From a virus, in IMG/VR virus record IMGVR_UViG_3300044655_001966, positions 1-42,066 of that record: a stretch of DNA of 42,066 nucleotides. The stretch is one strand, 5' to 3'. The notes beneath the pieces are model-generated. The model was given only the letters and a program-made list of their open reading frames with translations, made no database searches and was not told where the DNA came from. The translations under genes were made by a program, and so were the position numbers. Positions 2,501 to 42,066 of this stretch are shown in pieces (within the stretch, counting starts at the first letter, position 1; each line of letters starts with the position of its first letter).

Positions 2501-2520
2501 TTAAGTCTCCTAAAAATTAA

Positions 2521-2528
2521 TTTTTATA
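2521..2528 (-). promoter_or_regulatory. Candidate late promoter for gp23
   Basis: On the - strand this reads TATAAAAA, one mismatch from the T4 late box. It overlaps the gp22 stop and lies 20 nt before the gp23 ATG, leaving room for a start site and the GGAG ribosome site. A separate late promoter for the most abundant protein would be expected. Confidence 0.45.
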
Positions 2529-24200: not shown

Positions 24201-24610
24201 CAAGATCTGATTTTGCCAAAACTGATCCACGACGTCTTGACACAGGTGACGGCGGCACACGTGCCATACTAGGCGCACAGGGTGCCTACAAGGAAGCAAA
24301 GTTTACTGAAAACGCCGGTGGCGCTGCATTCGGTAATCCAAATTTGGCCAGACAAGGCATCACCAGTCGCTTTATCAGAAACCAGCCGCCGCCGGAGCCG
24401 CCCACAGATGGAACTGGTCAGACCGTGACATCTACAAGTGTGGCGGCCACGAATGTTCCGCCAAAATTACCTGAAGCCAACCCACAGGTTACACCGGGTC
24501 AAGCGGCAGCCGCCTTGAATGCCCAACGAATAGCAGATCTAAAAGCAAGAGCCGCTGGTACTGCACCAAAGTACAGACCAGGGCAACCAATTGCCACAGA
24601 AGGAGGTTAA
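21212..24610 (+). CDS. Large baseplate hub protein, gp27-like candidate, 1132 aa
   Basis: Residues 1-75 are a coiled-coil helix; 75-215 are Pro/Thr/Ala-rich linker. A beta-rich domain follows (~220-465: DGYYSYSYQISVYL, FFDNDFYIDSVTLENL, KFTLIEPQGMTLLERLRDAV, YIMIIRFYGYD, YEWTCKPVGQD). A second linker leads to a larger domain (~555-930) with VKWYVINMSAKPRTNKLDGK and YPYWFTGQNTAVLEYQETLN. It ends with KVKIIGDPAWIAQGSLF...SEFRAGRFEQTLVGKIYNL, the 'GDP..I..G...F..G.F.Q.L.G' pattern of gp27/GpD-type hub proteins. Lying directly before the gp5 spike, as a gp27 partner would, supports a hub role. A short peptide recurs in both linkers (22784-22836 and 24119-24171). T4 gp27 is only 391 aa. Confidence 0.6.
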   Translation: MATFAENEVARLILEVERWKRIVAQREAILANPPPGTTPEQLATQRTNLALSQATLAQYEADLQAAQQVAATQRTPEPEPQPPATASQTVSDDAPQGPNAPPAAEVSPSGRIVAPPDTSKPSNAETPVTSDTGGDTGTNDPVRTTEQTQATNGYNQGINVRAEDGTLSNLRKNPEAGELYDPGGMPGGVDLKTESGTPTRDDAANNSTSTKQTEVNASEASLVKVIPQPNVLDGYYSYSYQISVYLANDTQYKRLLYGNNLKLDGYQLLFQTGGAPLNRDGVRPQPAAGTTDQDGGTVPPEERNYPDGGRSPFFDNDFYIDSVTLENLLPVGGNGGAHHNIDIKFTLIEPQGMTLLERLRDAVENHMPVNPDGKVNYVAATYIMIIRFYGYDQSGNIVMPIKGGLTVGGQTSDTQAVVEKIIPFKIKNIDWTVSSKTTSYEWTCKPVGQDIGGSTARGTIPYDIQLNATSVEKMLGGQAKYTSTAATASTPGASTTATDARGRATAQSDPRVPGNAPAQRVPPPTQASVRAVDNAIDAAAKAPQTAVSAPKPSRVIVQGLMQAMNDFQQKLVLDGVYEQADNYSIEFVGPGAEKIAGATLVQPNVKIPKNYTNMPVGKEVPEKDRVDNASRSWSITAGQQILQVIELILRNSSYIGSQALFTIDEDGKQIPTKNLNYNEPVKWYVINMSAKPRTNKLDGKRNDYAYDIKYTVSPFLIKNLNSIYFPVNRFTGVHKSYPYWFTGQNTAVLEYQETLNAIFRATLSGSVEEDALATKQRNAQTASLNDIMMYTYQARSTESSAGALGKSFELGANAAELLYDPVGLKEAKVKIIGDPAWIAQGSLFRPVNQETFGGKALTSGFMPDGSIAFDNQEILFEIVWQRPEDYDLGTGMADPYSKTQKKYNARVALQSRVYLATKVTSEFRAGRFEQTLVGKIYNLVKPDASNASKPSVAALATNKNGSDAGRGKPTQATVRGIDNAIDARAKAEAATAAAQKARSDFAKTDPRRLDTGDGGTRAILGAQGAYKEAKFTENAGGAAFGNPNLARQGITSRFIRNQPPPEPPTDGTGQTVTSTSVAATNVPPKLPEANPQVTPGQAAAALNAQRIADLKARAAGTAPKYRPGQPIATEGG

Positions 24611-24613
24611 TCA

Positions 24614-26140
24614 ATGGCAGAGAACGTAGAACGCAGTCGAGGTCGGCCCAGTAACTACAAACTGGATCGTGGAGGAGTACCCGCAGAATTTGGACCATTC
24701 ACAGGAGTAGTCATGAGTACTACAGATCCCACACGGTCAGGCCGTCTGCGGGTGTACATTGATGCGTTTAGTTCAGGAGCTGACATTGGTGCCATGGACA
24801 ACGAAGCCACCTGGACCACAGTGAGTTACATGCCATCATTCTATGGCAACACACCAATGAGTCAGACTCAAGGAGCCACTGAAGGCCTTGGCGCCTATCC
24901 TGGCAATCCTACCAGTTACGGCATGTGGTTTACGCCGCCTGATGTGGGAGTAACAGTAATTTGTATATTTGTCAATGGTGATCGTAGCCAAGGTTTTTAT
25001 ATTGGCGTAGTACCAGAACAAGGACTAGGGCACATGGTGCCCGCCATTGGGTCTGTAACAGCATCACAAGCAGATGTGCAGAACCAAAATCAAGAAACTT
25101 ATTTTGCTGATGCTCCTAGGCTACCAGTTACAGAAATCAACCTAAACAACGACGGTATTTTCAACGACCCAAGATTTTATGATCAGGCCAAACCGGTGCA
25201 TGGATATCTCGCACAAGCATTGTTGCAACAAGGATTGATCACAGATCTAGAACGAGGTACTATTCAAAGTTCAAGTCAACGAGAAACTCCCAGCGCAGTA
25301 TTTGGCATCAGCACACCGGGCACGGCCATTTATCAAGGCGGCATGAAACCCAATGACATCAGAGCCAAACTCAATTCTGGAGAAGTCAAACCTGGCGATG
25401 CTAGAGTAATTGGTCGAGTAGGTGGGCACAGTCTAGTTATGGACGATGGAGACCTAGATGGAAACAACGCCTTGTTACGTTTGAGAACCAGCCTTGGCCA
25501 TCAAATCACCATGAGTGACACAGGAAACTTTTTCTACATTGTTCATGCCAATGGACAGACTTGGTTGGAGTTTGGGGTAGAAGGTACAGTGGATGTGTAT
25601 GCCACAAACTCAGTGAATGTACGCACCAAGGGAGATATTAACTTCCATGCTGACAGAGATATCAACATGTTTGCTGGCCGCTATTTAAAAATGAAAAGCA
25701 AACAAGACATGCAGATAGAGTCAGGAACGTTTTTGGCCATGCAAGCACAGGAAGATATCACACTGTACAGTCGCAGTACTGTGGGCGTCAAGGCCGATGG
25801 AACACTGACACTGAACAGCGCATCAGGCTCTTGGGGTGCAGGATCTGCATTGGCATTACAAGCAGGTGGTATTGATCTCAACGGACCTGCAGCAGGCCGG
25901 GTAAACACACCACAACCCTTGACCAAAACACTACTAGACGATACCGAATGGGATACCAGCAAGGGGTGGATAGTCAAACCCGAAGGGCTTGAAAGCATTG
26001 TGAATCGAGCGCCTACACATGAACCATATCCTTATCATAACAAGGGTGTGGATGTTGAGATTGCGTTTGAAGAAGGCAAGCCAAGCCCACCACCTGGCGC
26101 AGTACCAGTTCCAGCTGGCATAGAAATACAGGCAAAATAA
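24614..26140 (+). CDS. gp5: Baseplate hub/tail spike gp5 without lysozyme domain
   Basis: 508 aa. The N-terminal OB-fold begins GPFTGVVMSTTDPTRSGRLR and runs through MWFTPPDVGVTVICIFVNGD and GFYIGVVP, the gp5/VgrG pattern. The C-terminal part (~residues 290-430) is a spike beta-helix: LRLRTSLGHQITMSDTGNFF, then repeated short units ending in D-I/M (GDINFHADRDINMFAGRYLK, MQIESGTFL, DITLYSRSTVGVKADGTLTL). Between them lie ~130 residues with no T4-lysozyme sequence, so the muramidase of T4 gp5 is missing. A perfect AGGAGG (24601-24606) lies 7 nt before the ATG. A Pro-rich tail ends the protein. It pierces the outer membrane as the tail contracts. Confidence 0.88.
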   Translation: MAENVERSRGRPSNYKLDRGGVPAEFGPFTGVVMSTTDPTRSGRLRVYIDAFSSGADIGAMDNEATWTTVSYMPSFYGNTPMSQTQGATEGLGAYPGNPTSYGMWFTPPDVGVTVICIFVNGDRSQGFYIGVVPEQGLGHMVPAIGSVTASQADVQNQNQETYFADAPRLPVTEINLNNDGIFNDPRFYDQAKPVHGYLAQALLQQGLITDLERGTIQSSSQRETPSAVFGISTPGTAIYQGGMKPNDIRAKLNSGEVKPGDARVIGRVGGHSLVMDDGDLDGNNALLRLRTSLGHQITMSDTGNFFYIVHANGQTWLEFGVEGTVDVYATNSVNVRTKGDINFHADRDINMFAGRYLKMKSKQDMQIESGTFLAMQAQEDITLYSRSTVGVKADGTLTLNSASGSWGAGSALALQAGGIDLNGPAAGRVNTPQPLTKTLLDDTEWDTSKGWIVKPEGLESIVNRAPTHEPYPYHNKGVDVEIAFEEGKPSPPPGAVPVPAGIEIQAK

Positions 26141-26141
26141 C

Positions 26142-28130
26142 ATGGCTGAATTTACATTTAATCTTGATCAACTCAAAGCCAGTGTTGGTAAAACACAGAC
26201 CCGCTTTGAAGCTGGCCTGTATTCTAAAACCAAAGATGAAGATTTAACCTACACAGGTGATGATTACATAGTATGGGATAGAACCAACGGTGAACGTCTG
26301 CGCAGAGGATTGCCCAGTTTAACTCAAATTGGTTATCCACGACCGCCTGAAGATACCACAGGAGCAGCAACGGACACACCAGCTACAGGCTCAGTGCCCA
26401 CAAACTCCGACGGCTCTGCAAAAACATTTGCTATCAAGGGTCCTCCAGGACTCACACGTGAGCAGGCATTTGCAATATTCAAGAAACAAGCTGACACTGG
26501 TAGTCTTGTGGGATTCAAACCAGGAGAAACATTAAGCGCCGCGACACAAGCTGCGGACGGCCTAGCTGGGGCACAGGCCATGGTAGCACAAGCTCAGTCA
26601 GGAGTGGCTGGTAGCCTCAACGTGGGAAGTTTTACATCCAGTCTGTCAGCATCTGGAGTAGATTTGGCCACTGGACGTATACCATCAGTGGATGCAGCAT
26701 TTGCTCGAGGTGGTGTCAACGGCGGCGCTGGTGCGTTGACCAGTGTGCTAGGCAGTGTAGCCGGCGGTCTAGGAGCCGCAGGTGGAGCACTCAATGGATC
26801 ACTTGCTGGTATTGCCCCTGGGTTGACAGCAGCAGTTGGTCCAGCAGTAAATTCAGTAACACGTTCTCTAAGCGGCACAGCAGGATCAAGTCAGTTAGGG
26901 TCGGCGTTGGTAGGCGCCGCAGGAATACAAGGTTCAGTTGCAGTAACGTCTATACAAACAATCAACAAAACAATCAGTGGATTAACCGTTACCAGTCCCA
27001 TCAACACCGCAGACTTTACTAAAATTGCTGGCGGCATCACGCCTGCGGGTGCTGTGGCAGCTCTAGGACCCATGGGCGTGCCTGAAGTTAACGGATTGTT
27101 GGCACAAGCTAAAAATCTAGTTAATCAGGGCAGCTCAGTCTTGAGCAATACCAAAGGTCTTGGATCATTTGGGCTTGATGCTGGTCAATTAGAAACAGCC
27201 GGTTATGTAAAACCTGGCACAAGAGCACTGTTGGCAGCAGGTACAAACGTGTTTGCTGATGTAATTAAAAGTCCTGCAGTATGGACTGGCAAAGACGGAA
27301 TCAAAAGCGCCGCAGATCTTTTAAAGAACGTGCCCAAGCAAAGTCAAATTCAACAGGATCTCATGGCCAAGGGCGTGGCAGGTCTAGCCGCAGTTGGCGT
27401 ACCTGTTAAAAATTTATCCAGCCAAGGACTTGCTGGTATGGCATTGAATGCAGCCAAAGATCTGCCCAGTGCCGAAGCATTTGCAAAAGGTTTACCAATC
27501 CCCGGCGATGCAACTGGTTCCGTACAAGCTGCGTTTGGTAGTGCAGTTCGTGACGGCGCATTTGCTGTGAACTTGGTACAGACTAAAATTCCTACTGAAT
27601 TCAAGCAACAAGACATACCAGTACCTGCTGCTAACACAGTAAATCGTTCCACACTAGATGCCGCTAGTACACGAGTTATTGGGGATGACAAAGTCCCAAC
27701 GCCCAATTACGGACCAACAGAAACCAAATTGGAAAATCAGGCCGATGTTGAAGATTATGCTGACAAAGCGGTGATTTACATAAATCAGTATTTGAATCCT
27801 GCTGGCCGTGCCTTGTTCCAACTTGAAACCAAATTATCCGCGTTGGAAAATCAACAAGTAATTTCTCCAGAGGCATTTTCTGCAATAGATAGCGAATATC
27901 AACAGCTTCGAGATACGTTTAACAGCAGTGCTCGTGTGGAGGCTAGTGTACAGTACCTTGAAGCATTTAATAAATTGACACAGATTCAAAGAGGAAACGT
28001 AAATCAATTGCCCACAGGTCCAAAAAATGTTCAAGCAAAACAAGCTCTGCTTATAGAAAGTTCGAATAAAATTCGACAAAGAATAAACCAGTTAAAGTTG
28101 AAGATTGAAGGTCCGAGGAACAGCGCCTAA
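26142..28130 (+). CDS. Unrecognised Gly/Ala-rich virion protein, 662 aa
   Basis: I do not recognise a family. The N-terminus (FTFNLDQLKASVGKTQTRFE) and a WDRTNGERLRRGLPSL segment look globular, followed by a long Gly/Ala/Ser/Val-rich middle (~110-470) of weakly repeated hydrophobic stretches such as SVAGGLGAAGGALNGSLAGI. The last ~130 residues are a charged coiled coil (LETKLSALENQQVISPEAFS ... SSNKIRQRINQLKLKIEG). It starts 1 nt after gp5 and ends 18 nt before gp25, so it is part of the baseplate operon. The composition resembles tape measures or membrane-inserting tail proteins, making a hub or tail-core ejected protein possible; that is inference. Confidence 0.6.
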   Translation: MAEFTFNLDQLKASVGKTQTRFEAGLYSKTKDEDLTYTGDDYIVWDRTNGERLRRGLPSLTQIGYPRPPEDTTGAATDTPATGSVPTNSDGSAKTFAIKGPPGLTREQAFAIFKKQADTGSLVGFKPGETLSAATQAADGLAGAQAMVAQAQSGVAGSLNVGSFTSSLSASGVDLATGRIPSVDAAFARGGVNGGAGALTSVLGSVAGGLGAAGGALNGSLAGIAPGLTAAVGPAVNSVTRSLSGTAGSSQLGSALVGAAGIQGSVAVTSIQTINKTISGLTVTSPINTADFTKIAGGITPAGAVAALGPMGVPEVNGLLAQAKNLVNQGSSVLSNTKGLGSFGLDAGQLETAGYVKPGTRALLAAGTNVFADVIKSPAVWTGKDGIKSAADLLKNVPKQSQIQQDLMAKGVAGLAAVGVPVKNLSSQGLAGMALNAAKDLPSAEAFAKGLPIPGDATGSVQAAFGSAVRDGAFAVNLVQTKIPTEFKQQDIPVPAANTVNRSTLDAASTRVIGDDKVPTPNYGPTETKLENQADVEDYADKAVIYINQYLNPAGRALFQLETKLSALENQQVISPEAFSAIDSEYQQLRDTFNSSARVEASVQYLEAFNKLTQIQRGNVNQLPTGPKNVQAKQALLIESSNKIRQRINQLKLKIEGPRNSA

Positions 28131-28148: not shown

Positions 28149-28526
28149 ATGGCACAAAGATTCATTGGATTCAACACACAGAATCAGTTTAAAAAATTCA
28201 CACTGACGGATTTTGAATTGGTCAAACGCGATCTGTTGAATGCGTTTAATATTCGGCAGGGACAGCTGCCCGGACGACCAGGATACGGCACTGTGCTGTG
28301 GGACTACTTGTTTGAACCACAACTGGAAGAATTACAAACAGCCATTGAAAGAGAAGTTCAGCGAGTGGCCGGCGGCGACCCTAGGCTCTACATCAGTGAT
28401 ATCCAAACTTTTCCCCAGAACAACGGTATTTTGATACAGATAGAACTAACTGTGGTTCCCAGCACTGATGCTGAACGTTTGAGTATTTTCTTTGATCTAC
28501 AACAACGTAACGCATCCTATGTATAA
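28149..28526 (+). CDS. gp25: Baseplate wedge protein gp25
   Basis: 125 aa; T4 gp25 is 132. It belongs to the gp25/W (GPW) family, a core wedge protein that holds the sheath-initiating end of the baseplate. The typical pattern is RDLLNAFNIRQGQLPGRPGY, GTVLWDYLFEPQ (the conserved E-P), a long helix (LEELQTAIEREVQRVA), DPRLYISDI and a final beta strand ILIQIELTVVPSTDAERLSI. No Shine-Dalgarno is visible; a late-type box ends 4 nt before the ATG. gp6 follows 48 nt later. The gp25-gp6 pair is characteristic of T4-like and other contractile systems. Confidence 0.92.
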   Translation: MAQRFIGFNTQNQFKKFTLTDFELVKRDLLNAFNIRQGQLPGRPGYGTVLWDYLFEPQLEELQTAIEREVQRVAGGDPRLYISDIQTFPQNNGILIQIELTVVPSTDAERLSIFFDLQQRNASYV

Positions 28527-28574: not shown

Positions 28575-31500
28575 ATGGCAACCACCACAAGACAAACCGC
28601 AATATTTGGAGTTGAGGACTGGAAACAGATCTATCAAACCTATCGCGAAGCTGACTTCCAAAGTTATGATTTTGAAACTTTGCGCAAGAGCTTTATTGAC
28701 TATTTGCGGTTGTACTATCCCGAAACGTTCAACGACTTTATTGAATCGTCGGAATACATTGCCTTGCTGGATGTTATGGCGTTTATGGGCCAAGCACTGG
28801 CATTTCGCTCCGACCTAAACACACGTGAAAACTACATGGACACGGCCGAGCGTCGTGACAGTGTGGTTCGTTTGGCCAACCTAGTCAGCTACACTGCCAA
28901 ACGCAACACAGCCGCACAGGGCTTGCTTAAAGTTTTTTCAATAACCACAACAGAAAACGTAATTGATTATCAAGGCGTTAACTTGAGCAATGTCACAGTG
29001 AACTGGGCTGATCCTACCAACCCTGATTGGCAAGAGCAGTTTACCACCATTATCAATGCCAGTTTGGTCAACACTCAACGAGTGGGCCGCCCTGGCAACC
29101 GTCAGACTATCCTGGGCGTGAGAACAGACGAATATGGTATCAACTTGGTACCTGGCTATTTGCCCATTGTGCCTTACACAGCCACAGTAGACGGAGTGAC
29201 CATGCCGTTTGAGGCCATGACATCCACATCAGTGGGCGCAGATTTTCTGTATGAGCCAAGCCCACGAGCCAATTCACCATTCAATGTGTTGTTCCGCAAT
29301 GATCAACTGGGCTTTCAGTCAGCCAACACCGGCTACTTCTTTATGTTCAAGCAAGGTGTACTACAGAACCAAGACTTTAACTTGGCTGAAAAAGTCAGCA
29401 ATCGCACGGTAAACATCAACATTGAAGGTGTCAACAATGAAGATCGTTGGTTGTACCAGTTGGACAACCTGGGTAATATCAATCGCGAATGGGAATACAC
29501 AGAAAACATCTATGCTGCGGCAGCTGAACAAATTGGTACCAGCCTGCGCCCTATCTACACAGTGACATCACGCACCAATGATCAGATCACCATGGTGTTT
29601 GGTGACGGCGTGTTCTCAGAAATTCCAGTGGGCACATTCCGTGCCTATGTTCGTGCATCAAACGGATTGCAATACATTATCAATCCTGAAGAGATGCAGA
29701 GTGTGACTATCCCCATCAGTTACATCAGTCGCAACGGCAATCTTGAGACCATCACATTCACCTGCGGTATCACACGACCTGTGAGCAATAGCCAGGCACG
29801 TGAAACCATTGATCAAATCAAACAACGTGCGCCTGCACAGTACTATACTCAAAACCGCATGGTCAACGGCGAAGACTACAACCTCTTCCCGTACACACAA
29901 TACAATTCAATTGTAAAAAGCAAGGCCTTGAATCGTGCCTCAATTGGTACCAGTCGTTATCTTGACCTTGTGGACAACACCGGCAAATATTCCAGCACCA
30001 ACAGTTTTGGCGCCGATGGCGGATTGTGGGAACAAAATATATTGCCTACTATTTTGTTTTCCTACACTAATCGAAATGAAATAGCAGATGTGATTGCCAA
30101 TCAGGTACAGCCTGGCTTGGCTGAAGCTACCATGAAGCAGTTTTACTATGCTAATTTTCCAAGAGTAACTGAATCCACTCTGCCCACATATGGTGCAACC
30201 ACCTGGGTGCCAGGTGCTACCTGGAATCAGAGCACTACCTTGGCCAATGAAACCACCGGATATTTTAGAAATGCAGTGACTTCAGCAACGTGGCCCAATG
30301 GTACTCCAATCCCAGTGGGATTTACAACCACTACCAATTTCAAGTATGTGGCTGTGGGCAGTTTGATAAAATTTGTACCACCTGCTGGCTACTACTTTGA
30401 CGCTAATAATAAACTCAAGCCCGGCACACCCAGCCGCGCAGACGAAACATTAGAAATTTGGGCCAGTCCCCTGAGCATACAAGGCACTGGATACAACAAT
30501 GGCCTAGGAAATCTCAGTTCAGGCGCAGGCCCTATCACACTGAATAATTTTATACCAACTGGTGCCCTAGTCGACACTATTATTCCACTGTTTGTTTCAG
30601 ACTTGCCACTGGCATTGGAACAGGCCATGGCCGAACAAATTTTGCTCAATCGTAACTTTGGCATTGGCTATGACAGCAACGGCGACATCACTGGAACTCC
30701 CTACAGCTGGTACTTGATTACCAGTACCAACCTAGCTGCCAACAGCACATGGAGTCAAGCCAATGCAGGATCCACCACAGGCACAAATCAAGATGCATCA
30801 TGGTTGATTCAGTTTGTGGTGCAAAATCAAAACTACACAATCACCTTCCGTGGCCTGGCCTATTACTTTGGTTCAGTGCTGAGCACACGCTTTTTCTTCT
30901 ATGATGGCTCGCAAATTTACGACTCACGAACTGGCACAGTGATCAAGGATTACATCAATGTTCTGGCAGTAAACACTAGACCCGACTCTACAGACCATTT
31001 GTCCGGAGATGTTGTCATGACTATTACTGGACAACCAGTTGAATCAGACGGATACGTAGACGATTTCCAAGTGCTGGTCAGTTACCGTGACAGCGACAAT
31101 GATGGCGTGCCTGACAATCCTGACTTCTTTAATGAGATTGTTGCGCCTTCTGTAGACCCCACACAAAAGTACATATACCTACAAAAAACTGTGGACTTTG
31201 ACAACCTACAACGTTACCTGTTGGTAGCACAGGGCGAAGTTGTGAGTGACTACGCCACTTTAGATGATATTGAGTTGGCCAAGACTGAGTGGACTCCGGG
31301 ACAGGTATTCTATGCTTATACAGACGAGGCATTTTATCAATTGAGCGTGGGTGCTACTGGCCTTCGTACATTGATTGATGTAAGCAACGAATGGATTGCT
31401 AGAACTGGTCGTCAGTCGTTGTACTTCCAGTATCGACACAACGCACCACTGACCACCCGCATTGATCCAGGTACCACTAATATTATTGATCTATATGTGG

Positions 31501-32051
31501 TTACTTTGGCCTATTATACTGCATATCAAAACTGGATTCAAGATACCACAGGCACTGTGATTGAACCTGACGTGCCCAGTCTTGATGAATTAAGCACCAC
31601 TTACCAAGGCCTACAGAATTACAAGATGCTGAGCGATAATATTATTTTGAATAGCGTTGTATTCAAACCCTTGTTTGGACAAAAAGCTGCACAAGATTTA
31701 CGTGCCACTATCAAGGTTATCAGAGCCAGCGGCTCAACCGCTAGCACAAGTGAAATTAAAAGCGCCGTGGTTGCTGCAATGAATACATACTTCAGTATTG
31801 ATAAATGGAACTTTGGTGATACTTTTTATTTTAGTGAGCTAGCCGCATACTTGCATAGCAACCTAGGAACCATTATCAGTTCAGTGGTGTTGGTGCCGTT
31901 GAACTCACAAAAATATTTTGGGGACCTGTATGAAATACGTTCGGAGCCAAATGAAATATTTGCTAACGGTGCTACTATTAATAACATTGAAGTAATTGAA
32001 GCATTGACCAGTACCAACTTGCGTACTGCCCCTGGTAGTGGAGTAATTTAA
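28575..32051 (+). CDS. gp6: Baseplate wedge protein gp6
   Basis: 1158 aa; T4 gp6 is 660. gp6 dimers form the inner iris of the baseplate and belong to the gpJ-like wedge family. The conserved N-terminal block is clear: DFETLRKSFIDYLRLYYPET, FNDFIESSEYIALLDVMAFM, GQALAFRSDLNTRENYMDTA and RRDSVVRLANLVSYTAKRNT. ERRPIYTV...ITMVFGDGVFSEIPVG and QRAPAQYYTQNRMVNGEDYN are further gp6-type blocks. The C-terminal ~220 residues (from ILNSVVFKPLFGQKAAQDLR to YLHSNLGTIISSVVLVPLNS) also fit. A ~350-residue central insertion accounts for the extra length. The stop overlaps the next ATG (TAATG), coupling the two. Confidence 0.93.
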   Translation: MATTTRQTAIFGVEDWKQIYQTYREADFQSYDFETLRKSFIDYLRLYYPETFNDFIESSEYIALLDVMAFMGQALAFRSDLNTRENYMDTAERRDSVVRLANLVSYTAKRNTAAQGLLKVFSITTTENVIDYQGVNLSNVTVNWADPTNPDWQEQFTTIINASLVNTQRVGRPGNRQTILGVRTDEYGINLVPGYLPIVPYTATVDGVTMPFEAMTSTSVGADFLYEPSPRANSPFNVLFRNDQLGFQSANTGYFFMFKQGVLQNQDFNLAEKVSNRTVNINIEGVNNEDRWLYQLDNLGNINREWEYTENIYAAAAEQIGTSLRPIYTVTSRTNDQITMVFGDGVFSEIPVGTFRAYVRASNGLQYIINPEEMQSVTIPISYISRNGNLETITFTCGITRPVSNSQARETIDQIKQRAPAQYYTQNRMVNGEDYNLFPYTQYNSIVKSKALNRASIGTSRYLDLVDNTGKYSSTNSFGADGGLWEQNILPTILFSYTNRNEIADVIANQVQPGLAEATMKQFYYANFPRVTESTLPTYGATTWVPGATWNQSTTLANETTGYFRNAVTSATWPNGTPIPVGFTTTTNFKYVAVGSLIKFVPPAGYYFDANNKLKPGTPSRADETLEIWASPLSIQGTGYNNGLGNLSSGAGPITLNNFIPTGALVDTIIPLFVSDLPLALEQAMAEQILLNRNFGIGYDSNGDITGTPYSWYLITSTNLAANSTWSQANAGSTTGTNQDASWLIQFVVQNQNYTITFRGLAYYFGSVLSTRFFFYDGSQIYDSRTGTVIKDYINVLAVNTRPDSTDHLSGDVVMTITGQPVESDGYVDDFQVLVSYRDSDNDGVPDNPDFFNEIVAPSVDPTQKYIYLQKTVDFDNLQRYLLVAQGEVVSDYATLDDIELAKTEWTPGQVFYAYTDEAFYQLSVGATGLRTLIDVSNEWIARTGRQSLYFQYRHNAPLTTRIDPGTTNIIDLYVVTLAYYTAYQNWIQDTTGTVIEPDVPSLDELSTTYQGLQNYKMLSDNIILNSVVFKPLFGQKAAQDLRATIKVIRASGSTASTSEIKSAVVAAMNTYFSIDKWNFGDTFYFSELAAYLHSNLGTIISSVVLVPLNSQKYFGDLYEIRSEPNEIFANGATINNIEVIEALTSTNLRTAPGSGVI

Positions 32052-35000
32052 TGGCAACAGTTCGTAGTGTAGATTTTCTTCCTGAAATTTTTCAGACTGA
32101 TGCCAATAAACAATTTTTAAGAGCCACCTTGGATCAGCTGATCCAAGAGCCTAACTTTAGAAAAACACAAGGTTTCATAGGTCGCTCAGTTGGTCCAGGT
32201 GTTGACCCCAACGACAAGTATGTGGTTGAACCCACAACAACCAGAGCCAATTATCAATTGGAACCAGGCGTGGTCAGCCTCATACCTGAAACCAGTCAGA
32301 TTCGTGATGCCATCACTTATCCTGGCCTAAACGACGCCATTGGATTTCAAGGTGGTAACGCCACTCGTCCAGATCGACTGTACTCGAGCGAATATTACAC
32401 CTGGGATCCGTTTGTAGATTTTGATGCGTTTGTAAACTTCTCACAGTATTTTTGGGTGCCTGGCGGACCTGACACTGTGGATGTGGCCGCAACTGGAGTG
32501 TCCACGTCGGATAATTTTGTAGTTACTCGGGCTAATGGAGTTTATACTTTTTCCGGCGTTAATGGTGACAACCCTATTATTGAACTGGTACGTGGCGGCA
32601 ATTACACTTTTCAAGTGGCTCAGAACAGCACAGAAACAGTCAACTATCGAGTGAGAAATTCAGGCACATCAGCCTATGTGATTGATTTCCAAAACAACCC
32701 TAGTCTTACATTGGCTCGCGGCAACACCTATGTGTTTAATTTAACCTTAGATGGTTTGTTCCCGTTTTGGATCAAGACTCAACCTACCATTGGTACTGGA
32801 GAAACCTACAGCCAAGGCGTCAGCCGCAATGGTGCTGTTACTGGCTTGGTAACATTCACAGTACCTCAAGACGCACCTGATACCTTGTACTATGCAGCAC
32901 AAAATCAAGCCGGCATGCAAGGCACGTTGAATATTGTGGATGGTACCCCAGGAACAGGACCAGGATTCTGGATTCAGACAACTCCAGGCGTGTCGGGCAC
33001 GATCACTGCCACGCCTAACATATCCAGTAGAGATATACTGGGGGTGACCAACAACGGTGAAGATTTAGGTACAGTGGTTTTCAATGTACCAGCCAAAGAT
33101 GCACAGAGTTTTTACTACAACTTGACCAGTATTGGCACAGTTGATTTGGTAACAGACATGCAGTTTGCACAAATCAACAATCAACCTGTCAGCGAATTCA
33201 TTAGTCAATACAATGGCATTGACGGAATTACAAACCTTGATGGACGTACTATAATTTTTACCAATCCCGTTGAAGATGTTCAAGATGGCGGTTGGTATCG
33301 TACCAGTTTCTTTGATCCACTCATAGACGATGCATCCAACGTGGGTGTGGCCGGCAGCTACGACAGCGTGCCTTATGATTATACTATTGATATTACACCC
33401 GATCAACGCTATCAAAAGTATCAAATCAGCTATGTGAATATTGCAGGTATTGTGTACATACAAGTGAACAAGATAGCTGATATTGCACCGTTGGAAAAAT
33501 TCACTATTGGGTATGGACTAATCTACAGTAGTACTCAATGGTACAAAGATGCCACTGGCGAGTTCAAACAGATTCCTTTGTTGTCCGCAGTACAAGATAC
33601 CTTGTATTACCAAGATGGAACAGATCCAGAAATCTTTGGACGTATCAAGTTAATAGAACAGACACAAACCAACATTATCTATGTGGACGAAATCTTAGGG
33701 CGCAAAACCTATACTAGTCCCAATGGTGTGACATTCAGCAACGGGCTGAGAGTTCGTTTTACTGGTGATGTATCGCCTGCTAGTTATGGCTCTGGGTCAT
33801 CCTCATTTGAGTACACCGCAACTGAGGCTGGCACAAACTACATTACCTACAACGATTCTACTGACTTGTATGTGGGTCAACAGGTGGTATTCTCCTCACC
33901 ATCATTGGGGGGACTCAATGCAGGCCAGACCTATTATGTGAGGTCAATTGCAGCCAACGGCCTCAAATTCACAGTGAGTGCTGCAGAAGGCGGCCCTGCT
34001 GTGGTGTTGGCAAACGGTACAGGAGTGGCCGCAGCCACAGCAATCAGCAGTAGAGAATACTACGTGAGTGGTGTGGGCACTGCAATTGAATTACTGCCTA
34101 CTGTGAATTATGTTGTACCAGAACTGTATGTGGAAGATGCAGACGACAGTACAATATCCACAGAACCAGGACAACCAGATTACCTGACCATTGATCGTGC
34201 CAGCAAAGATTTAAATGCCTGGACTAGAAGCAATCGTTGGTTCCATATTGACGTACTCAATGCCACCGCCGACTACAATAACACCACCGCGGTGCTGGAC
34301 AACAACTACCGAGCCAAGCGACCAATTGTGCAGTTTAGACCTGGCATGCGCCTGTGGAACATGGGCACTGAAGGCAAAGCACCGATTGACATTATTGACT
34401 TTGAAGAAACAGATGCGTTTTCTAATATTGAAGGGTCTACCAGTTACAGCACCGACGGCTACACCTTTGTAGAAGGCACCCGAGTTATTTTTGCAGCAGA
34501 TGAAGATACTTCGGTGCGCAACAGAATCTATATTGTGAGCTTTGTTACTCCAGACACTGTTGCTCCTTTAATAGCACAACCTATCATTACTCTCACCCAG
34601 GCTCCTGACGGATTGGTATTACTAGACCAATCCACAGTGTGTATTAGTGGCACCAGTACCGCGGGAAAAACGTTTTGGTATGACGGAATTGAATGGACAG
34701 AAGCGCAGCAAAAAACTTCAGTACAACAGGCTCCGTTGTTTAATATCTACAATCCCGAAGGCGTGAGTTTTGGAGATGGTACTCAGTACCAATCAACTAC
34801 ATTTGCAGGATCAAAACTGTTTAGTTACGCGGCGAGCGACACAACTATTCTTGATCCAGTACTACAGTTTCCTCTCAAGTACCTGAACATCAACAACGTT
34901 GGTGACATTGTGTTTGACAACAACTTATACGTTGACACATTCTTGTATGTGGTTGACAACGTTAGTATCACATCAGACATTAGTTCTGGATCTGTCAGAG

Positions 35001-38000
35001 AATACGCCACTCGAACTGATTATCAGAAGTTGATAGGATGGCAAAAGGCCGCAGTGGACCAACAACTTTACCAGCAGTTTAAATTTTCATACACAGGCGC
35101 CACGCTCAAACTAGATGTGTCAGCATTGGCTCAAACATCCATTGCTACTCCAGTGATCAAAATATATGCGGGAAGTGTTTTCGTAGATCCCAGCAAATAT
35201 ACCTATACCACCACGGCTGACAGCACTGTTATAACCTTACTCAATACCTATGCGCTGACAGATATTATAGAGGTGTTGGTACTGAGTGATCAAACCAGTA
35301 AAGTTGCATTTTATCAAGTGCCCGACAACTTGCAAAGCAACCCATTGAACTCAAACTCACAAGAGTTTACACTGGGAACAATCCGAACCCATTATCAAAG
35401 CATCTGTGAAAATCTGCAGACTCTTCAAGGTCCAGTGAACGGTGCCAACAACACCCGAGATCTTGGAAACATAATTCCTTACGGTCTGGTAATCTTACAA
35501 CAAAGTAGCCCATTGACTTTAGCTGGCTACTTCATGCGCAGCACCGACTATAATATTTTTGCGTCAATGCAATACAACAGTCGCGAATACATCAAATTTA
35601 AAGCACAAATGTTAGATTCAGTACTGACACAAAATATTGGATTTAACACCACAGCACAAGTTCTTGATACTGCCATACAAAATGTAACATTGGGCAAACT
35701 AGATAGCCAACCATTTTATTGGAGTGACATGATACCTGCTGGCATCACCTATGCCAGCACTAGCTATACTGTGAGTTTTATCACCACCAATGTATTTGAT
35801 ACTGTACAGGTGTATGATTTTAATACTCAAAATTATCTTGGTCTTTTGGTATATCTCAATAACCAACAGTTGACTCGAGATGTAGACTATACTGTGGCCA
35901 CCGACGGTCCGCGTATCACTGTGTTGGCTCCACTGACAGTGGGAGATGTACTACTGGTCAATGAATACAATGCCACTTATGGAAATTTTGTACCTAACAC
36001 ACCTACTAAATTGGGATTGTATCCTTCTTGGAAACCGGCGTTGATAACTCAGGTTACTAGTAATGGTAACGCATCATTTATACTGGGTCATGACGGCAGT
36101 ACCACTCCTGTGTTCGGAGACATTCGTGATGAGGTATTACTGGAATTTGAAACACGGATCTACAACAACCTCAAACTGGATGACAACCCAGTGCCACTCA
36201 CCATTGACGATGTGTTGCCAGGACAGTTCCGTGACACAGGCTACACGTTTGAAGAAATCAACACTATCTTTAGCAGTGACTTCTTGTCCTACTGTGGATG
36301 GAACAAACTAGATTACAACCAGCAAAATTATCTGGCCAACAATGAATTTACCTACAACTACAGTAGCAGTAACAATCGTCTTGACAACCAACCTTTGTTG
36401 GGCGCCTGGCGCGGAATCTATCGATATTTTTACGACACAGAACAACCCAGCTTGACACCATGGCAAATGTTGGGATTGACCAAAGAACCTGACTGGTGGC
36501 AAGATCGTTATGGTCCAGCGCCTTATACTTCTGATAACTTGGTGTTATGGGACGACCTCGAAGCTGGCTTGGTGGCCGACCCTGTGGCACCATACACAGT
36601 GCCAAAGTATGCACGTCCAGGCCTAACTTCAGTGATCCCCACTGACAGCGAAGGCACGTTGCTGAGCCCACTTGACTGTGTGGTAGGTATTACTCCTTTG
36701 AATGCCAATCTCACTGGTAAATTTTCCAAGAGTTGGGCGCTAGGCGATGGCGGACCAGTAGAAGCATCTTGGTACAACAGTTCGTCATATCCATTCTCTG
36801 TCATGCATGTGCTGGCAGTCACACGTCCCGCAAAGTTTTTTGCACTGTTTGCTGACCGTGACAGATATCGCTACAACCTGGACTATGATCAATACCTGCT
36901 GGATGATCGTTATCGACTAGACGCTAATGGGGTTCAAGTCTACGGCAATGGCGTCAGCAAAGCCAGTTATATCAACTGGATTGTGGATTACAATCGTCAG
37001 ACTGGTATTGATTCAACTGATCTATTGACCGCAGATCTACAGAATCTAGATGTACGCCTGTGCTATCGTATGGCATCATTCTCTGACAAACAATACATCA
37101 AATTGTTTACAGAAAAATCTAGTCCGAATTCAACTAATACAGCCTTGATGATCCCCGATCAAAGCTATGACATTTTGTTGTACAAGAATCAACCTTTTGA
37201 TCAGGTAAGATACAGTAGTGTAGCAGTGCAAAAAGTCTCCAACGGTTATGCTGTTTTTGGATTTGGTAATCAACAACCTTACTTTAACATATTGCAAAGT
37301 CAGGCAGTGGGACGTCTTGCAACCTACAGTTCGGGTGGCATCACTGTGCGTATCCCTACTTTCTATACCAATACTGTGGTACAGGTCCCTTACGGATTTG
37401 TATTCAGCAACGAAACTGCGGTGTGTGATTTCTTGGCCAGTTACGGCCAACTGCTGAGTACACAAGGCCTAACATTTACCAACACTGCCAATGGCTATGT
37501 GTTGGATTGGCCACGCATGATCAATGAATTTTTGTATTGGAGCCAACAGGGTTGGGGTACAGATGCAATTATAAATCTAAACCCACTAGCCGCCAAACTA
37601 GAAATTTCTAGACCTCTAGCAGTGGTTGACAGTATCAATACTGAAACCACAGAGAACCTGTTGTTGAATCAAAATTCACAAGAAATACCACCACGAGCAC
37701 TCAATATAGTAAGACTGGGCAACAATTTCAGTATCGAACCATTGAATTTAGACGCTATCAGTTATATTGACATGCGGTTTACCAACTACGAACATATGAT
37801 TGTGTTGAACAATCAAAGTGTGTTTGGAGACCTGATTTATGATCCCACAACAGGCGCAAGACAAAGTAGATTGAGCATGGTGGCCATGACCACTGCTGAC
37901 TGGAACGGATCAGTTGACGCACCTGGATTTATCTTGAATCAAAACAACGTTCAAGAGTGGACTGGGTTAAAAACCTACAGCAAGGGCGAGATTGTCAAGT

Positions 38001-41000
38001 ACAAAAATGTATACTGGTCAGCACTGACTATTGTACAACCTACTGACAAGTTTGATTTCAATGTGTGGACTCAAAGTGATTACACTCAGATCGAATTAGG
38101 CTTATTACCTAACTTGGCCAACAAAGCTGATCAACTGGCCAACAGTTACAATATCAATGCGGCAAACATTGAAAACGACAATGACCTCTTGAGTTACGGA
38201 TTAATTGGATTCAAGCCACGCCAGTATATGGCAGCACTGAATCTTGATGATGTTAGTCAGGTAAATGTATACCGACAATTCTTGGATACCAAAGGAACAT
38301 TACTAGCTACAGAGCTGTTCAAACAGGCCAACCTTGGTAAAGAATCTGCAGACTACGACATCTACGAAAACTGGGCAGTGCAACGTGCGGTGTATGGCGC
38401 CAATGCCAACCGCAGTTATTTTGAACTGCGACTCAACCGCGCCTTGCTCAGTAGCAATCCCAGCTTGGTTCAAGTCATACAACCGCAACAGGTCAGTGAA
38501 GCCGATCAAACCATCTTCCTCAGTGACGTGTGGCGTCAAAGTTTTGCATTGACATCAACTGACATTTTGCCAGTGACTACTGAATTACCAACTGATGTGG
38601 CATTGCCCACTGCTGGCTATGTAAATCTTGACGACGCTGATATCACAGTATTCGACATTGAAAATTCTGCCAGTCTTGCTGCCAACATTGATGCTATTCA
38701 AGTAGGCACCAGTGTATGGGTGGCCAAGATTAACAGTTACGATTGGAACATATACCGTGCTCAAGCGGTACCAGGCGTGATTCAACACGTTTGTGATAAC
38801 CTAGATGGCACCAGCCGGGTGATCTTCTCAACCAATCATGGCCTGGTAGCAGGCGATAAACTGATTATCAAATTCTTTGATACTGAAATCAACGGTGTGT
38901 ATCAGGTGTTGAGTGTGTCAAATTTGACCACAGTAAACATTGCGTTTAATTTCAGTGGCGACCGTGTGGTGGCCAATGGATCAGGACTGGGATTCACCTT
39001 GCAGACCATGCGTGTGGCCCAGGCCAGCGATGTGATTAATTTGCCATATGCCAACAATATTCTACCAGGCGCCAAAGTTTGGGTAGACAACAACGGCTCA
39101 GGACTATGGGAAGTTTTACAAAAGAACAGTGTATTTTCTGACATTATTGCATTGAATCCTGTGTTGCTAGATGCAGGCGAACAATACGGCGCCAGCGTAG
39201 CACAGGCCCGTAATAGATTGGCTGCCTTGGTAGGTAGTCCTCGATATGGATTTGGATCCGGCACTGAGTACGGCGCAATTTACGTGTACGTCAAGAGTTA
39301 TGGAGACCAGTACATACCAGTCAGCCCTATCGGAGCCAATGATTCGATATTAACAGTAACAACCACTGGCGTAAGAGGCCTGGGCAATTCTGCTGATTTT
39401 GGCAACCAAACCTGGGCTGTGGCCGGAGCCAGTGCTAGTCAAGGAACTGCAAGTCTAGCCAATGTGGGTTATACGTTTGTGATTTTCCGCGATCCTCTCC
39501 TTGGAGAACCTGGTAGTATTCCTTATACCACCTGGCAACTGTTGACCCCGCCCACAGCTCCAGATCGTGCTATAGCAGGAGAAATGGGATACTCAGTAGC
39601 ACTCAGCCAAGATGAGCGTTGGATGTACGTGGGCGCTCCAGGTGCAAATCAAGTGCATGCATATGGCCGAGTTGACTGGCAACAACAAGAATTAAAAGTG
39701 TTTGCTGACGGTACAACCAAGTCCTGGAACATCAACAATTCAATTCAAATTGACAACATATATCAGTTAAAAGTCAGTCTAAACAGACAAGTGCAGACCG
39801 TGGGAGTGGATTATACCATCACTGGTCTCAACACAGTGACCTTTAACAACACCCCAGGATTGTTTAATGCTACCTCTATTATACCTGGAACAGAATACAC
39901 TATTCTAAGCGTAGGTACCACTGATTTTGTTTCCGTAGGTGCTGCTTCAAACACCGTGGGAGTGACTTTTACTGCCACAGGCACTGCCACAGGCACAGGC
40001 ACTGTGCTGGAAGAAACCCTAGTTGAATTTGCAAGATACAACAGTTATCAAATTCCATACACCGCTGCAACACAAAATTTAGCAGATGGTCTAGATGCCA
40101 ATGGTCGTAGACTAGGTCTAGCTACTGTGGAACTGAATGACATCTATTCATTCAGTATCAAACTCAACGGCAACCTGTTGCGACCCAATATTGATTACAC
40201 ATTTGCTGGAACCACAGTAACATTTTTAATATCGTTTGTAAGTGCAGATATTTTGGTAGTGTCTGCCAAAGAATATTTTACCTATGTATACACCATTGAT
40301 TCCAGCGACGTCGCCGGCGGACTCACCGCTGGAGATAGATTTGGACACAGCGTATGCTGTACCACAGACGGACGTCAAGTACTAATCGGCACACCATACA
40401 AAGCCATGGCCAATGCCATTGACACTGTAAGCAGTACAGGGGTGGCTGTGGCAGGCACAGCAGCCTACAGTAATCTCAGTCAGTCTAGCACATCTGGATC
40501 AGGCTTTGGTGCTAAATTTGATGTGAGCCGTAGTGGATCATCATATACAGTCACAGTGGTACGTGGCGGCCAAGACTATGCAGTCAGTGATACAGTGACC
40601 ATTCCAGGTACATCGTTGGGTGGTACTAGTGTAAATGATTTGACCATAACAGTGAACTCAGTTGAAACTTTCTCTGAAGCTGGATCAACTTATGTGTTTG
40701 ACCGAGATGTTCAGAAATTTGTGTACGGTACAGACGGCAGCACAGTTGATTTCACAGTGCTTGGCACAGTCACTGGGCCAGTTAGTGTGTTGTTAAACGG
40801 TCAGTTTTTAATTAATCAACAAAACAGCGTGAATGACGGTCCAGGACTGTTCAATACATTCACTGTGAATGGCAATGTTATTACCATAAACGCTGACATG
40901 GTCATAGGCGACATAATTGAAATAGAAACCAATCAGTTCCGACAGGTTCAAGAAATTGATCAAAACATCATAGCTGAGTTCTCAAATTTTGGCCAAGCCA

Positions 41001-42066
41001 CAGACATTTGTACTAACAACTGTAGTCTGTATGTGGGCGAGCCACAAAGTAGTCAACAAGTTTTCAAAGGTGGCGTGGTTGAGCGTTTTGTAAACCAAAG
41101 TCGCGTGTATGGCACTATTACCAGCACAGTGCCTATGGCCAATCTTGTCAGCAGTGATACTATTCGTGTCAACGATATAGATGTTGTGGTGCCAGGTGCT
41201 TGGTCATCATCCACAGGTTACGACATCAACACTGTAGTCTACAACACCAGCGGTAGCACAACACAAATATATGTTTCTATACAAAATGTGCCTGCGCTCA
41301 CTGCGCTGACCAACACAGCCTACTGGACTCTATTAGAATCAACCACAGTATTAGCCAGTGCAGAAGTTCGTGCATTGGCTCAACAAATCACACGATCAGT
41401 GTCAAATGTGCTGGCCACAGTCAACACCGCTGGATACTTGACACTCAGCGTGAAAAATTCAGATGCTGCACCAGAATACGATAAACTACAAGTGGCTCCT
41501 GGCAGTGTAGGTACCGCATTTGCTACCTTGGGTTTTGAAACATTTGCATGGACTCAAACTATTGAAAGTCCGTATGCCACAGAGATGGCAGGATTTGGTG
41601 CCAGCCTCAGTATTGATGACTCTGCTGTGAATCTAGTGGTGGGCGCTCCTCGGGGTACCTTGTATCTTGAAACAGAGTTTGACGACGGAACCACATTCTT
41701 TGATGCTGGTAGTACTGTGTTCTTCTCGATCATTGTACAAAGTGGAGCAGTGTACACATACGATTATCTCCCTAGCTCGACTCTGTTGATAACTAACCCA
41801 GGCAAGTTTGTATTCGGACAACAGATCAACAATGTAGAGGTTGCACCATATGATGGATTTGGTACAGTAGTAAACTACACTTCTGGGGTGCTCATGGCCG
41901 GTGCACCTAAAAACGACTACAATGACAGTGCTGCCGATTTTGGTGCGGTGTTTGTGTTTGAAAATGCAACTCGTACACCTTCATGGACAGTATTAAGAGA
42001 GCAACAACCAGTGGTAGACATTCGCTTGTTGAACAGCGTGTTCTTGTACGATCGTATCACCAGCGC
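32051..42066 (+). CDS. Giant tail/baseplate virion protein (3' partial, over 3300 codons)
   Basis: A single frame stays open from the ATG at 32051 to the right edge. The N-terminus (MATVRSVDFLPEIFQTDANK, QFLRATLDQLIQEPNFRKTQ, GFIGRSVGPGV) is a leader shared by giant structural proteins after gp6 in aquatic T4-like phages; in T4 this place is gp7. Domains in order: a cupredoxin-like domain (~216-297), a YYV-type beta module (~590-660), a long unassigned middle (~1350-2250), a CBM5/12-like segment (~1969-2017) and integrin-type FG-GAP blades (~2398-3300). The latter include MGYSVALSQDERWMYVGAPG, AGDRFGHSVCCTTDGRQVLI, FGQATDICTNNCSLYVGEP and GFGASLSIDDSAVNLVVGAP. Adhesin-like composition and position suggest a surface-exposed wedge or fibre part; gp7 equivalence is only positional. 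Confidence 0.85.
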   Translation, partial: MATVRSVDFLPEIFQTDANKQFLRATLDQLIQEPNFRKTQGFIGRSVGPGVDPNDKYVVEPTTTRANYQLEPGVVSLIPETSQIRDAITYPGLNDAIGFQGGNATRPDRLYSSEYYTWDPFVDFDAFVNFSQYFWVPGGPDTVDVAATGVSTSDNFVVTRANGVYTFSGVNGDNPIIELVRGGNYTFQVAQNSTETVNYRVRNSGTSAYVIDFQNNPSLTLARGNTYVFNLTLDGLFPFWIKTQPTIGTGETYSQGVSRNGAVTGLVTFTVPQDAPDTLYYAAQNQAGMQGTLNIVDGTPGTGPGFWIQTTPGVSGTITATPNISSRDILGVTNNGEDLGTVVFNVPAKDAQSFYYNLTSIGTVDLVTDMQFAQINNQPVSEFISQYNGIDGITNLDGRTIIFTNPVEDVQDGGWYRTSFFDPLIDDASNVGVAGSYDSVPYDYTIDITPDQRYQKYQISYVNIAGIVYIQVNKIADIAPLEKFTIGYGLIYSSTQWYKDATGEFKQIPLLSAVQDTLYYQDGTDPEIFGRIKLIEQTQTNIIYVDEILGRKTYTSPNGVTFSNGLRVRFTGDVSPASYGSGSSSFEYTATEAGTNYITYNDSTDLYVGQQVVFSSPSLGGLNAGQTYYVRSIAANGLKFTVSAAEGGPAVVLANGTGVAAATAISSREYYVSGVGTAIELLPTVNYVVPELYVEDADDSTISTEPGQPDYLTIDRASKDLNAWTRSNRWFHIDVLNATADYNNTTAVLDNNYRAKRPIVQFRPGMRLWNMGTEGKAPIDIIDFEETDAFSNIEGSTSYSTDGYTFVEGTRVIFAADEDTSVRNRIYIVSFVTPDTVAPLIAQPIITLTQAPDGLVLLDQSTVCISGTSTAGKTFWYDGIEWTEAQQKTSVQQAPLFNIYNPEGVSFGDGTQYQSTTFAGSKLFSYAASDTTILDPVLQFPLKYLNINNVGDIVFDNNLYVDTFLYVVDNVSITSDISSGSVREYATRTDYQKLIGWQKAAVDQQLYQQFKFSYTGATLKLDVSALAQTSIATPVIKIYAGSVFVDPSKYTYTTTADSTVITLLNTYALTDIIEVLVLSDQTSKVAFYQVPDNLQSNPLNSNSQEFTLGTIRTHYQSICENLQTLQGPVNGANNTRDLGNIIPYGLVILQQSSPLTLAGYFMRSTDYNIFASMQYNSREYIKFKAQMLDSVLTQNIGFNTTAQVLDTAIQNVTLGKLDSQPFYWSDMIPAGITYASTSYTVSFITTNVFDTVQVYDFNTQNYLGLLVYLNNQQLTRDVDYTVATDGPRITVLAPLTVGDVLLVNEYNATYGNFVPNTPTKLGLYPSWKPALITQVTSNGNASFILGHDGSTTPVFGDIRDEVLLEFETRIYNNLKLDDNPVPLTIDDVLPGQFRDTGYTFEEINTIFSSDFLSYCGWNKLDYNQQNYLANNEFTYNYSSSNNRLDNQPLLGAWRGIYRYFYDTEQPSLTPWQMLGLTKEPDWWQDRYGPAPYTSDNLVLWDDLEAGLVADPVAPYTVPKYARPGLTSVIPTDSEGTLLSPLDCVVGITPLNANLTGKFSKSWALGDGGPVEASWYNSSSYPFSVMHVLAVTRPAKFFALFADRDRYRYNLDYDQYLLDDRYRLDANGVQVYGNGVSKASYINWIVDYNRQTGIDSTDLLTADLQNLDVRLCYRMASFSDKQYIKLFTEKSSPNSTNTALMIPDQSYDILLYKNQPFDQVRYSSVAVQKVSNGYAVFGFGNQQPYFNILQSQAVGRLATYSSGGITVRIPTFYTNTVVQVPYGFVFSNETAVCDFLASYGQLLSTQGLTFTNTANGYVLDWPRMINEFLYWSQQGWGTDAIINLNPLAAKLEISRPLAVVDSINTETTENLLLNQNSQEIPPRALNIVRLGNNFSIEPLNLDAISYIDMRFTNYEHMIVLNNQSVFGDLIYDPTTGARQSRLSMVAMTTADWNGSVDAPGFILNQNNVQEWTGLKTYSKGEIVKYKNVYWSALTIVQPTDKFDFNVWTQSDYTQIELGLLPNLANKADQLANSYNINAANIENDNDLLSYGLIGFKPRQYMAALNLDDVSQVNVYRQFLDTKGTLLATELFKQANLGKESADYDIYENWAVQRAVYGANANRSYFELRLNRALLSSNPSLVQVIQPQQVSEADQTIFLSDVWRQSFALTSTDILPVTTELPTDVALPTAGYVNLDDADITVFDIENSASLAANIDAIQVGTSVWVAKINSYDWNIYRAQAVPGVIQHVCDNLDGTSRVIFSTNHGLVAGDKLIIKFFDTEINGVYQVLSVSNLTTVNIAFNFSGDRVVANGSGLGFTLQTMRVAQASDVINLPYANNILPGAKVWVDNNGSGLWEVLQKNSVFSDIIALNPVLLDAGEQYGASVAQARNRLAALVGSPRYGFGSGTEYGAIYVYVKSYGDQYIPVSPIGANDSILTVTTTGVRGLGNSADFGNQTWAVAGASASQGTASLANVGYTFVIFRDPLLGEPGSIPYTTWQLLTPPTAPDRAIAGEMGYSVALSQDERWMYVGAPGANQVHAYGRVDWQQQELKVFADGTTKSWNINNSIQIDNIYQLKVSLNRQVQTVGVDYTITGLNTVTFNNTPGLFNATSIIPGTEYTILSVGTTDFVSVGAASNTVGVTFTATGTATGTGTVLEETLVEFARYNSYQIPYTAATQNLADGLDANGRRLGLATVELNDIYSFSIKLNGNLLRPNIDYTFAGTTVTFLISFVSADILVVSAKEYFTYVYTIDSSDVAGGLTAGDRFGHSVCCTTDGRQVLIGTPYKAMANAIDTVSSTGVAVAGTAAYSNLSQSSTSGSGFGAKFDVSRSGSSYTVTVVRGGQDYAVSDTVTIPGTSLGGTSVNDLTITVNSVETFSEAGSTYVFDRDVQKFVYGTDGSTVDFTVLGTVTGPVSVLLNGQFLINQQNSVNDGPGLFNTFTVNGNVITINADMVIGDIIEIETNQFRQVQEIDQNIIAEFSNFGQATDICTNNCSLYVGEPQSSQQVFKGGVVERFVNQSRVYGTITSTVPMANLVSSDTIRVNDIDVVVPGAWSSSTGYDINTVVYNTSGSTTQIYVSIQNVPALTALTNTAYWTLLESTTVLASAEVRALAQQITRSVSNVLATVNTAGYLTLSVKNSDAAPEYDKLQVAPGSVGTAFATLGFETFAWTQTIESPYATEMAGFGASLSIDDSAVNLVVGAPRGTLYLETEFDDGTTFFDAGSTVFFSIIVQSGAVYTYDYLPSSTLLITNPGKFVFGQQINNVEVAPYDGFGTVVNYTSGVLMAGAPKNDYNDSAADFGAVFVFENATRTPSWTVLREQQPVVDIRLLNSVFLYDRITS
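32696..32940 (+). other. Cupredoxin-like domain with lost copper ligands (within the giant protein)
   Basis: The segment NPSLTLARGNTYVFNLTLDG ... FPFWIKT ... GLVTFTVPQDAPDTLYYAAQ ... AGMQGTLNIVD follows the cupredoxin-like module of marine phage and bacterial proteins. In copper-binding members the matching sites are HPF, YYxC and HxxM. Here they read LFPF, YYAAQ and NQAGM, so His, Cys and His are replaced and only Met remains. The fold is probably kept for structure. Confidence 0.6.
39242..41960 (+). other. FG-GAP (integrin-like) propeller blades within the giant protein
   Basis: At least six blade-like segments start near 39242, 39362, 39587, 40331, 40982 and 41591, with a further VLMAGAPKNDYND piece at 41885. 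Each combines an FG-S or GxS strand with a (V/L)xVGAP or IGTP strand. Inserted modules separate them. A seven-bladed propeller would fit, with more possibly beyond the edge. Confidence 0.6.

Follow-up and report, generated by a model that had tools for sequence, protein, structure and literature searches.

The giant gene that directly follows the baseplate wedge gene gp6 in the virus record analysed here (IMG/VR, 42,066 bases, with a T4-like gene set according to PHROG matches; the whole stretch is referred to below as the window) encodes seven FG-GAP repeats at residues ~2377-3305 (nt 39179-41965), and the region spanning them almost certainly adopts, as judged from modelling, the seven-bladed propeller fold of integrin type. 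We consider it fairly probable that the product of this gene is a baseplate-associated virion protein and that an ancestor from which a single large lineage of jumbo T4-like phages descends acquired the FG-GAP (integrin alpha type) propeller at one position, flanked by two conserved cores. Attachment of T4-like phages to the host is usually described in terms of long and short fibres; if the propeller binds, a giant baseplate-adjacent protein would offer a second, built-in binding surface kept by the whole lineage.

Giant Gene and Its Genomic Context

Products of the window with PHROG matches include the major head protein, head protease, portal, gp46/47-type nuclease subunits and late sigma factor, as well as the baseplate hub (gp5 type), gp25-type and gp6-type proteins, while the 281-aa product of 10102-10947 matches Pfam T4_baseplate. 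The segment considered here is arranged as follows.

24614..26140, + strand: gp5-type baseplate hub protein (phrog_13211, E 4.5e-37)
28149..28526, + strand: gp25-type baseplate wedge subunit (phrog_43, E 2e-10)
28575..32051, + strand: gp6 baseplate wedge (phrog_10646, 927 bits)
32051..42064, + strand: giant virion structural protein gene (open frame; phrog_10938)
35948..38770, + strand: core A of the giant protein, residues 1300-2240 (tblastn, blastp; 55-row alignment)
42008..42064, + strand: start of core B, which continues past the window (blastp of residues 3320-3640 of the L008 protein to jumbo phage orthologs)

An earlier reading made from the sequence only had placed the giant gene right after gp6, and the gp6 match listed above bears this out; gp6 and the giant gene share one base (32051), which ends the former and starts the latter. 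The frame provides at least 3338 aa in the window (3338 codons) and then runs off its end, the complete protein of a ~95% identical relative (L008, 3101-18277) being 5058 aa long. By PHROG profile match it is a member of the virion structural protein family phrog_10938 (E 2.6e-216), and the giant-protein family comprises at least 594 relatives. Throughout the orthologous gene clusters examined, the giant gene always lies directly after gp6 with baseplate genes upstream, and the order gp5-gp25-gp6-giant gene-201 aa gene is shared with PA5oct; fibre-like genes are located downstream of the giant gene. By analogy with PA5oct, where both the syntenic giant ortholog (gp355) and the 201-aa product carry ESI-MS/MS notes, we infer that the giant protein is present in the virion, and its assignment to the baseplate is suggested by the gene order gp5, gp25, gp6, giant, with the subsequent 201-aa gene also conserved.

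Two other genes sitting between the baseplate genes, 21212-24610 and 26142-28130 (both + strand; 1132 and 662 aa), gave no PHROG match at E 0.001 and no Pfam match. The 1246-aa protein encoded at 17169-20909 (+ strand) has internal repeats: a segment ending FAINEEDGRPYYRGEGPPTQ is present twice, and so is a second repeated segment (ISVQLPGGALQFSSQEQLTAWQENPQSFAVQNVGGVNTVVPF), after which an acidic proline-rich repeat tract follows; a known family (phrog_12050) is matched by the C-terminal part only. Beside the gp46/47-type genes, a 142-aa frame at 12862-13290 (- strand) looks by eye like a GIY-YIG endonuclease. The idea of a cyanophage host was dropped, psbA being absent from ten related contigs, mostly incomplete ones.

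FG-GAP Repeats and Predicted Fold

Sequence comparison indicates that the blade-like segments quoted in the sequence-only reading, all present in the frame where they had been located, are not a chance resemblance. The search against FG-GAP families that it proposed came out positive: with the curated cut-off of Pfam FG-GAP_2 at 23 bits, the whole frame gives 32.9 bits (E 7e-8) and residues 2215-3338 give 38 bits, and the family matches 46 of 46 aligned relatives at E <= 0.01 (best E 4e-18). The repeats (R1-R7) and the outer strands flanking them were delimited as listed below.

39101..39121, + strand: outer strand GLWEVLQ before R1, candidate ring-closing strand (sequence; strand at model residues 139-144)
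39179..39295, + strand: FG-GAP repeat 1, residues 2377-2415 (best FG-GAP_2 stretch; model strands)
39380..39493, + strand: FG-GAP repeat 2, degenerate, residues 2444-2481 (model strand pattern)
39584..39679, + strand: FG-GAP repeat 3, residues 2512-2543 (weak FG-GAP_2; profile match to R1, R4, R5, R6)
40340..40396, + strand: FG-GAP repeat 4, first part, residues 2764-2782 (profile match to R1, R3, R6)
40676..40711, + strand: FG-GAP repeat 4, last strand, residues 2876-2887 (joined to the first part in 40 relatives without insertion 2)
40988..41098, + strand: FG-GAP repeat 5, residues 2980-3016 (profile match to R1, R3, R6, R7)
41594..41770, + strand: FG-GAP repeat 6, residues 3182-3240 (profile match to R1, R3, R4, R5, R7)
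41858..41965, + strand: FG-GAP repeat 7, residues 3270-3305 (weak FG-GAP_2; profile match to R1, R5, R6)
41981..42007, + strand: outer strand SWTVLREQQ after R7, the other candidate ring-closing strand (sequence; strand at model residues 1098-1104)

When R1 and R3-R7 were compared with one another profile to profile, 12 of 15 pairs proved alike at 82-96% probability, the weaker pairs being R3-R7, R4-R5 and R4-R7 (10-40%); the intervening modules, taken as controls, matched the repeats at <=2.5%, except for R4, which gave 18% with one other insert and 100% with the insert inside R4 itself. At least six blades had been counted previously, and while the repeats are real, their number is seven: the one missed is R2 (39380-39493), which has a weak profile match at most and is assigned from the model's strand pattern and from where it falls in the series. 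Seven is also the number of repeats detected, in independent support, by the blade profile of compact relatives in 61 of the 124 proteins with matches, and eight were never found. The supposition that the propeller reaches past the window does not hold, as it lies wholly inside, from ~39101/39179 to 41965/42007. The Ca2+ motif DxDxDG, which canonical integrins carry in the later blades, was sought as a loose pattern and has 0 matches in the window and one or two in 7 of the 46 relatives.

Structure prediction, also suggested at the outset, points to the same fold. For the AlphaFold2 model of residues 2215-3338 (mean pLDDT 78.6, pTM 0.80), the best fold matches in PDB are integrin alpha5 propellers, with Foldseek probability of 1.00 and TM of 0.55-0.56 normalised to the alpha5 propeller; the rmsd of the superposition is large, as expected where inserts break the alignment. 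That the ring closes is deduced from the number of repeats together with the fold matches. Sequence searches of PDB with the whole frame and with the window's propeller returned no relevant match, and a profile of insert-free relatives (16 proteins) was therefore needed; it retrieved 57 PDB sequences at E of 0.01 or better, all of them integrin alpha chains (best E 1.2e-13).

Insertions Between Blades

Modules had been thought to separate each blade from the next, which is true following R3, within R4 and on either side of R5, but R1-R2-R3 and R6-R7 are contiguous with no module between them. The following insertions are distinguished.

39695..40276, + strand: insertion 1, after R3, two related beta modules (matching each other at 95.9%)
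40403..40657, + strand: insertion 2, inside R4 (present in 6 of 46 relatives)
40712..40936, + strand: insertion 3, between R4 and R5 (related to the insertion 1 modules, 69%)
41120..41539, + strand: insertion 4, between R5 and R6 (flagellin-IN-like by eye)
41198..41335, + strand: cassette nested in insertion 4 (no Pfam family)

Over the 46 relatives, blade lengths are nearly constant while the insertions vary, insertion 1 occupying from 135 to 301 aa; Flagellin_IN matches 7 of these 46, and the inserts between blades yield sub-threshold matches only when compared with Pfam. The nested cassette is present in the window and in three relatives (L002, L005 and L008) and is missing from L004, where the neighbouring blades are ~95% identical. 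By eye, this cassette resembles a chitin-binding type 3 module. A weak sub-threshold match to CBM_5_12 (chitin-binding type) was also seen at residues ~4115-4140 of the L008 giant protein, and the PA5oct and SCTP-2 orthologs have similar weak matches in other places.

The insertions are unusually large for elements lying between blades, as had been remarked, but they do not belong to the basic propeller: compact relatives (e.g., L135 and L123) do without them, keeping seven contiguous repeats in 571-615 aa between the cores, and the large inter-blade modules are therefore regarded as later, faster-changing insertions. For pairs with core A identity of 0.70-0.80, the median identity is 0.72 for core A, 0.73 for core B, 0.66 for the blades and 0.50 for the inserts, the latter value counting aligned residues only and thus understating the difference.

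Conserved Cores and History of the Site

Core A is common to PA5oct, Atu_ph07, Phosso, RaK2-type and other jumbo phages, and together with core B, which begins at about residue 3320, it is found in jumbo phages of Pseudomonas, Salicola, Agrobacterium, Sinorhizobium, Vibrio, Xanthomonas and enterobacteria. PA5oct, RaK2-type phages, Atu_ph07 and Phosso possess both cores with no FG-GAP repeats between them, and checks of isolated relatives revealed no propeller at this site. The distance between the cores is 103-113 aa in PA5oct, XaC1, PBECO4 and GAP32, and the modules occupying the site in SCTP-2, PA5oct, Atu_ph07, Phosso and Vibrio 2.275 gave no convincing Pfam family. By eye, the ~400 aa located there in SCTP-2 (L075 19854-21146) look like a jelly roll of LamG/concanavalin type, an appearance unconfirmed by Pfam.

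Among 80 extra environmental loci retrieved by core A alone, FG-GAP matches all fall between core A and core B. In the FastTree phylogeny of core A, built from 98 proteins that have both cores, a single branch (local support 100) separates the 73 carrying repeats from the rest, the ratio of 73/98 describing a sample drawn by similarity, among the matches listed, and not a frequency in nature; every one of the 73 sampled members of this clade has kept the propeller. As read from these sequences, the distribution of repeats is that of one gain or one loss of the propeller, and gain is the simpler of the two because across the branch the site is taken up by unlike sequences, 103-914 aa long. One site of a widespread giant structural protein thus holds quite different domains depending on the lineage.

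Proposed Role and Alternative Explanations

The propeller would serve as a permanent outward-facing binding platform, with variable modules between its blades altering the choice of ligand; glycans or proteins of the host surface and the fibre proteins encoded downstream may be considered as candidates. Its putative use is probably to grip the host or other parts of the tail, adhesion as such being a plausible role. Since the blades change barely faster than the cores, the propeller itself more probably provides an unchanging scaffold or docking surface, with the inserts as the variable part, and a constant scaffold with variable, exposed modules is the version that we favour. Rapid turnover fits exposure of the inserts, while the blades are more conserved than a receptor-binding tip usually is, a feature compatible with docking within the virion as well as with adhesion. 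The most far-reaching proposal, that the lineage attaches via a baseplate-fixed integrin-like propeller and not via fibre tips alone, with specificity set by exchangeable inter-blade modules and with six copies per particle if the protein replaces gp7, is tentative and rather unlikely. The insert positions on the blades would be a natural place for host-range determinants in phages known from metagenomes only.

It seems somewhat unlikely that the propeller works internally, as a structural or docking domain to which fibre or pin proteins are fastened, without ever contacting the host. Retention in all sampled clade members, blades changing nearly as slowly as the cores and the fibre-like genes downstream speak for such a role, as does the precedent of T4 gp7, the domains of which hold gp10, gp9 and gp8 (PMC3004832). 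On the other hand, the blade inserts vary and have come or gone even between close relatives, which suggests exposure, and the propeller-free relatives still have the downstream 201-aa gene. Location of the giant protein outside the baseplate, as a fibre, whisker or decoration protein encoded beside baseplate genes, is unlikely, given that in the orthologous clusters examined its gene strictly follows gp6 and the genes on the upstream side encode baseplate proteins, although it would agree with the lack of gp7 similarity, with the filing of phrog_10938 under head and packaging in PHROGs and with the morphology of the PA5oct relative MIJ3, whose baseplate is spiky and whose fibres are long and thin, their proteins being mostly unassigned (PMC6892783).

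As to the fold itself, phage endosialidases and WD40-type proteins also turn up in the fold search, and single blades scanned alone score below the FG-GAP_2 cut-off, as might be the case for another propeller (sialidase or WD40 type) or for unrelated beta modules with chance FG-GAP likeness. Both versions are very improbable and largely refuted, given that the profile search leads to integrin alpha chains only and that the TM of endosialidases is <=0.14 versus the above values for integrin alpha5; FG-GAP_2 matches, moreover, go down to 1.4e-23 in the compact relatives.

Comparison With Known Systems

With the integrin alpha propeller, the phage domain shares seven FG-GAP repeats and the best profile and fold matches in PDB, and it differs by the absence of DxDxDG calcium loops in the window, by large inter-blade modules and by being built into a structural protein. 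The phrog_10938 orthologs of jumbo T4-like phages (PA5oct gp355, GAP32 gp230, Atu_ph07 gp180 and Phosso 294) are alike in their orthologous cores and the same place after gp6, whereas 103-914 aa of other sequence without FG-GAP stand at the propeller site. T4 gp7 is likewise encoded directly after gp6 by a gene overlapping it, but it is 1032 aa long and has no profile similarity to the giant protein, hhalign probability being <=0.2% for every part of the latter; the model of core A is poor (pLDDT 53, pTM 0.33). Despite its gene 7 position, the giant protein should not be filed as gp7.

FG-GAP_2 repeats do occur in jumbo phage proteins of Phosso and Atu_ph07, yet in separate genes, their gp6-adjacent giant orthologs being devoid of repeats. 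Phosso has 42 FG-GAP_2 matches in other genes (frames of 3702 and 3182 aa, and two of ~400 aa), and its two giant frames probably contain several propellers each. Most of the 42 matches belong to two adjacent giant genes annotated as hypothetical (L089 4339-24979). Atu_ph07 gp320 is a 393-aa FG-GAP protein annotated as hemagglutinin. When the window's propeller was compared with isolated phages, only Phosso was matched, plus a short insert match in S-SZBM1, and some proteins of uncultured phages are already named FG-GAP repeat in BFVD. FG-GAP repeats in phages are thus not new per se, other phages having them in separate proteins. No paper combining FG-GAP with the phage baseplate was found in the open-licence literature, and a report in a subscription journal may exist; as far as these sources show, what is new is a seven-repeat propeller fixed in the gp6-adjacent giant protein of a whole lineage.
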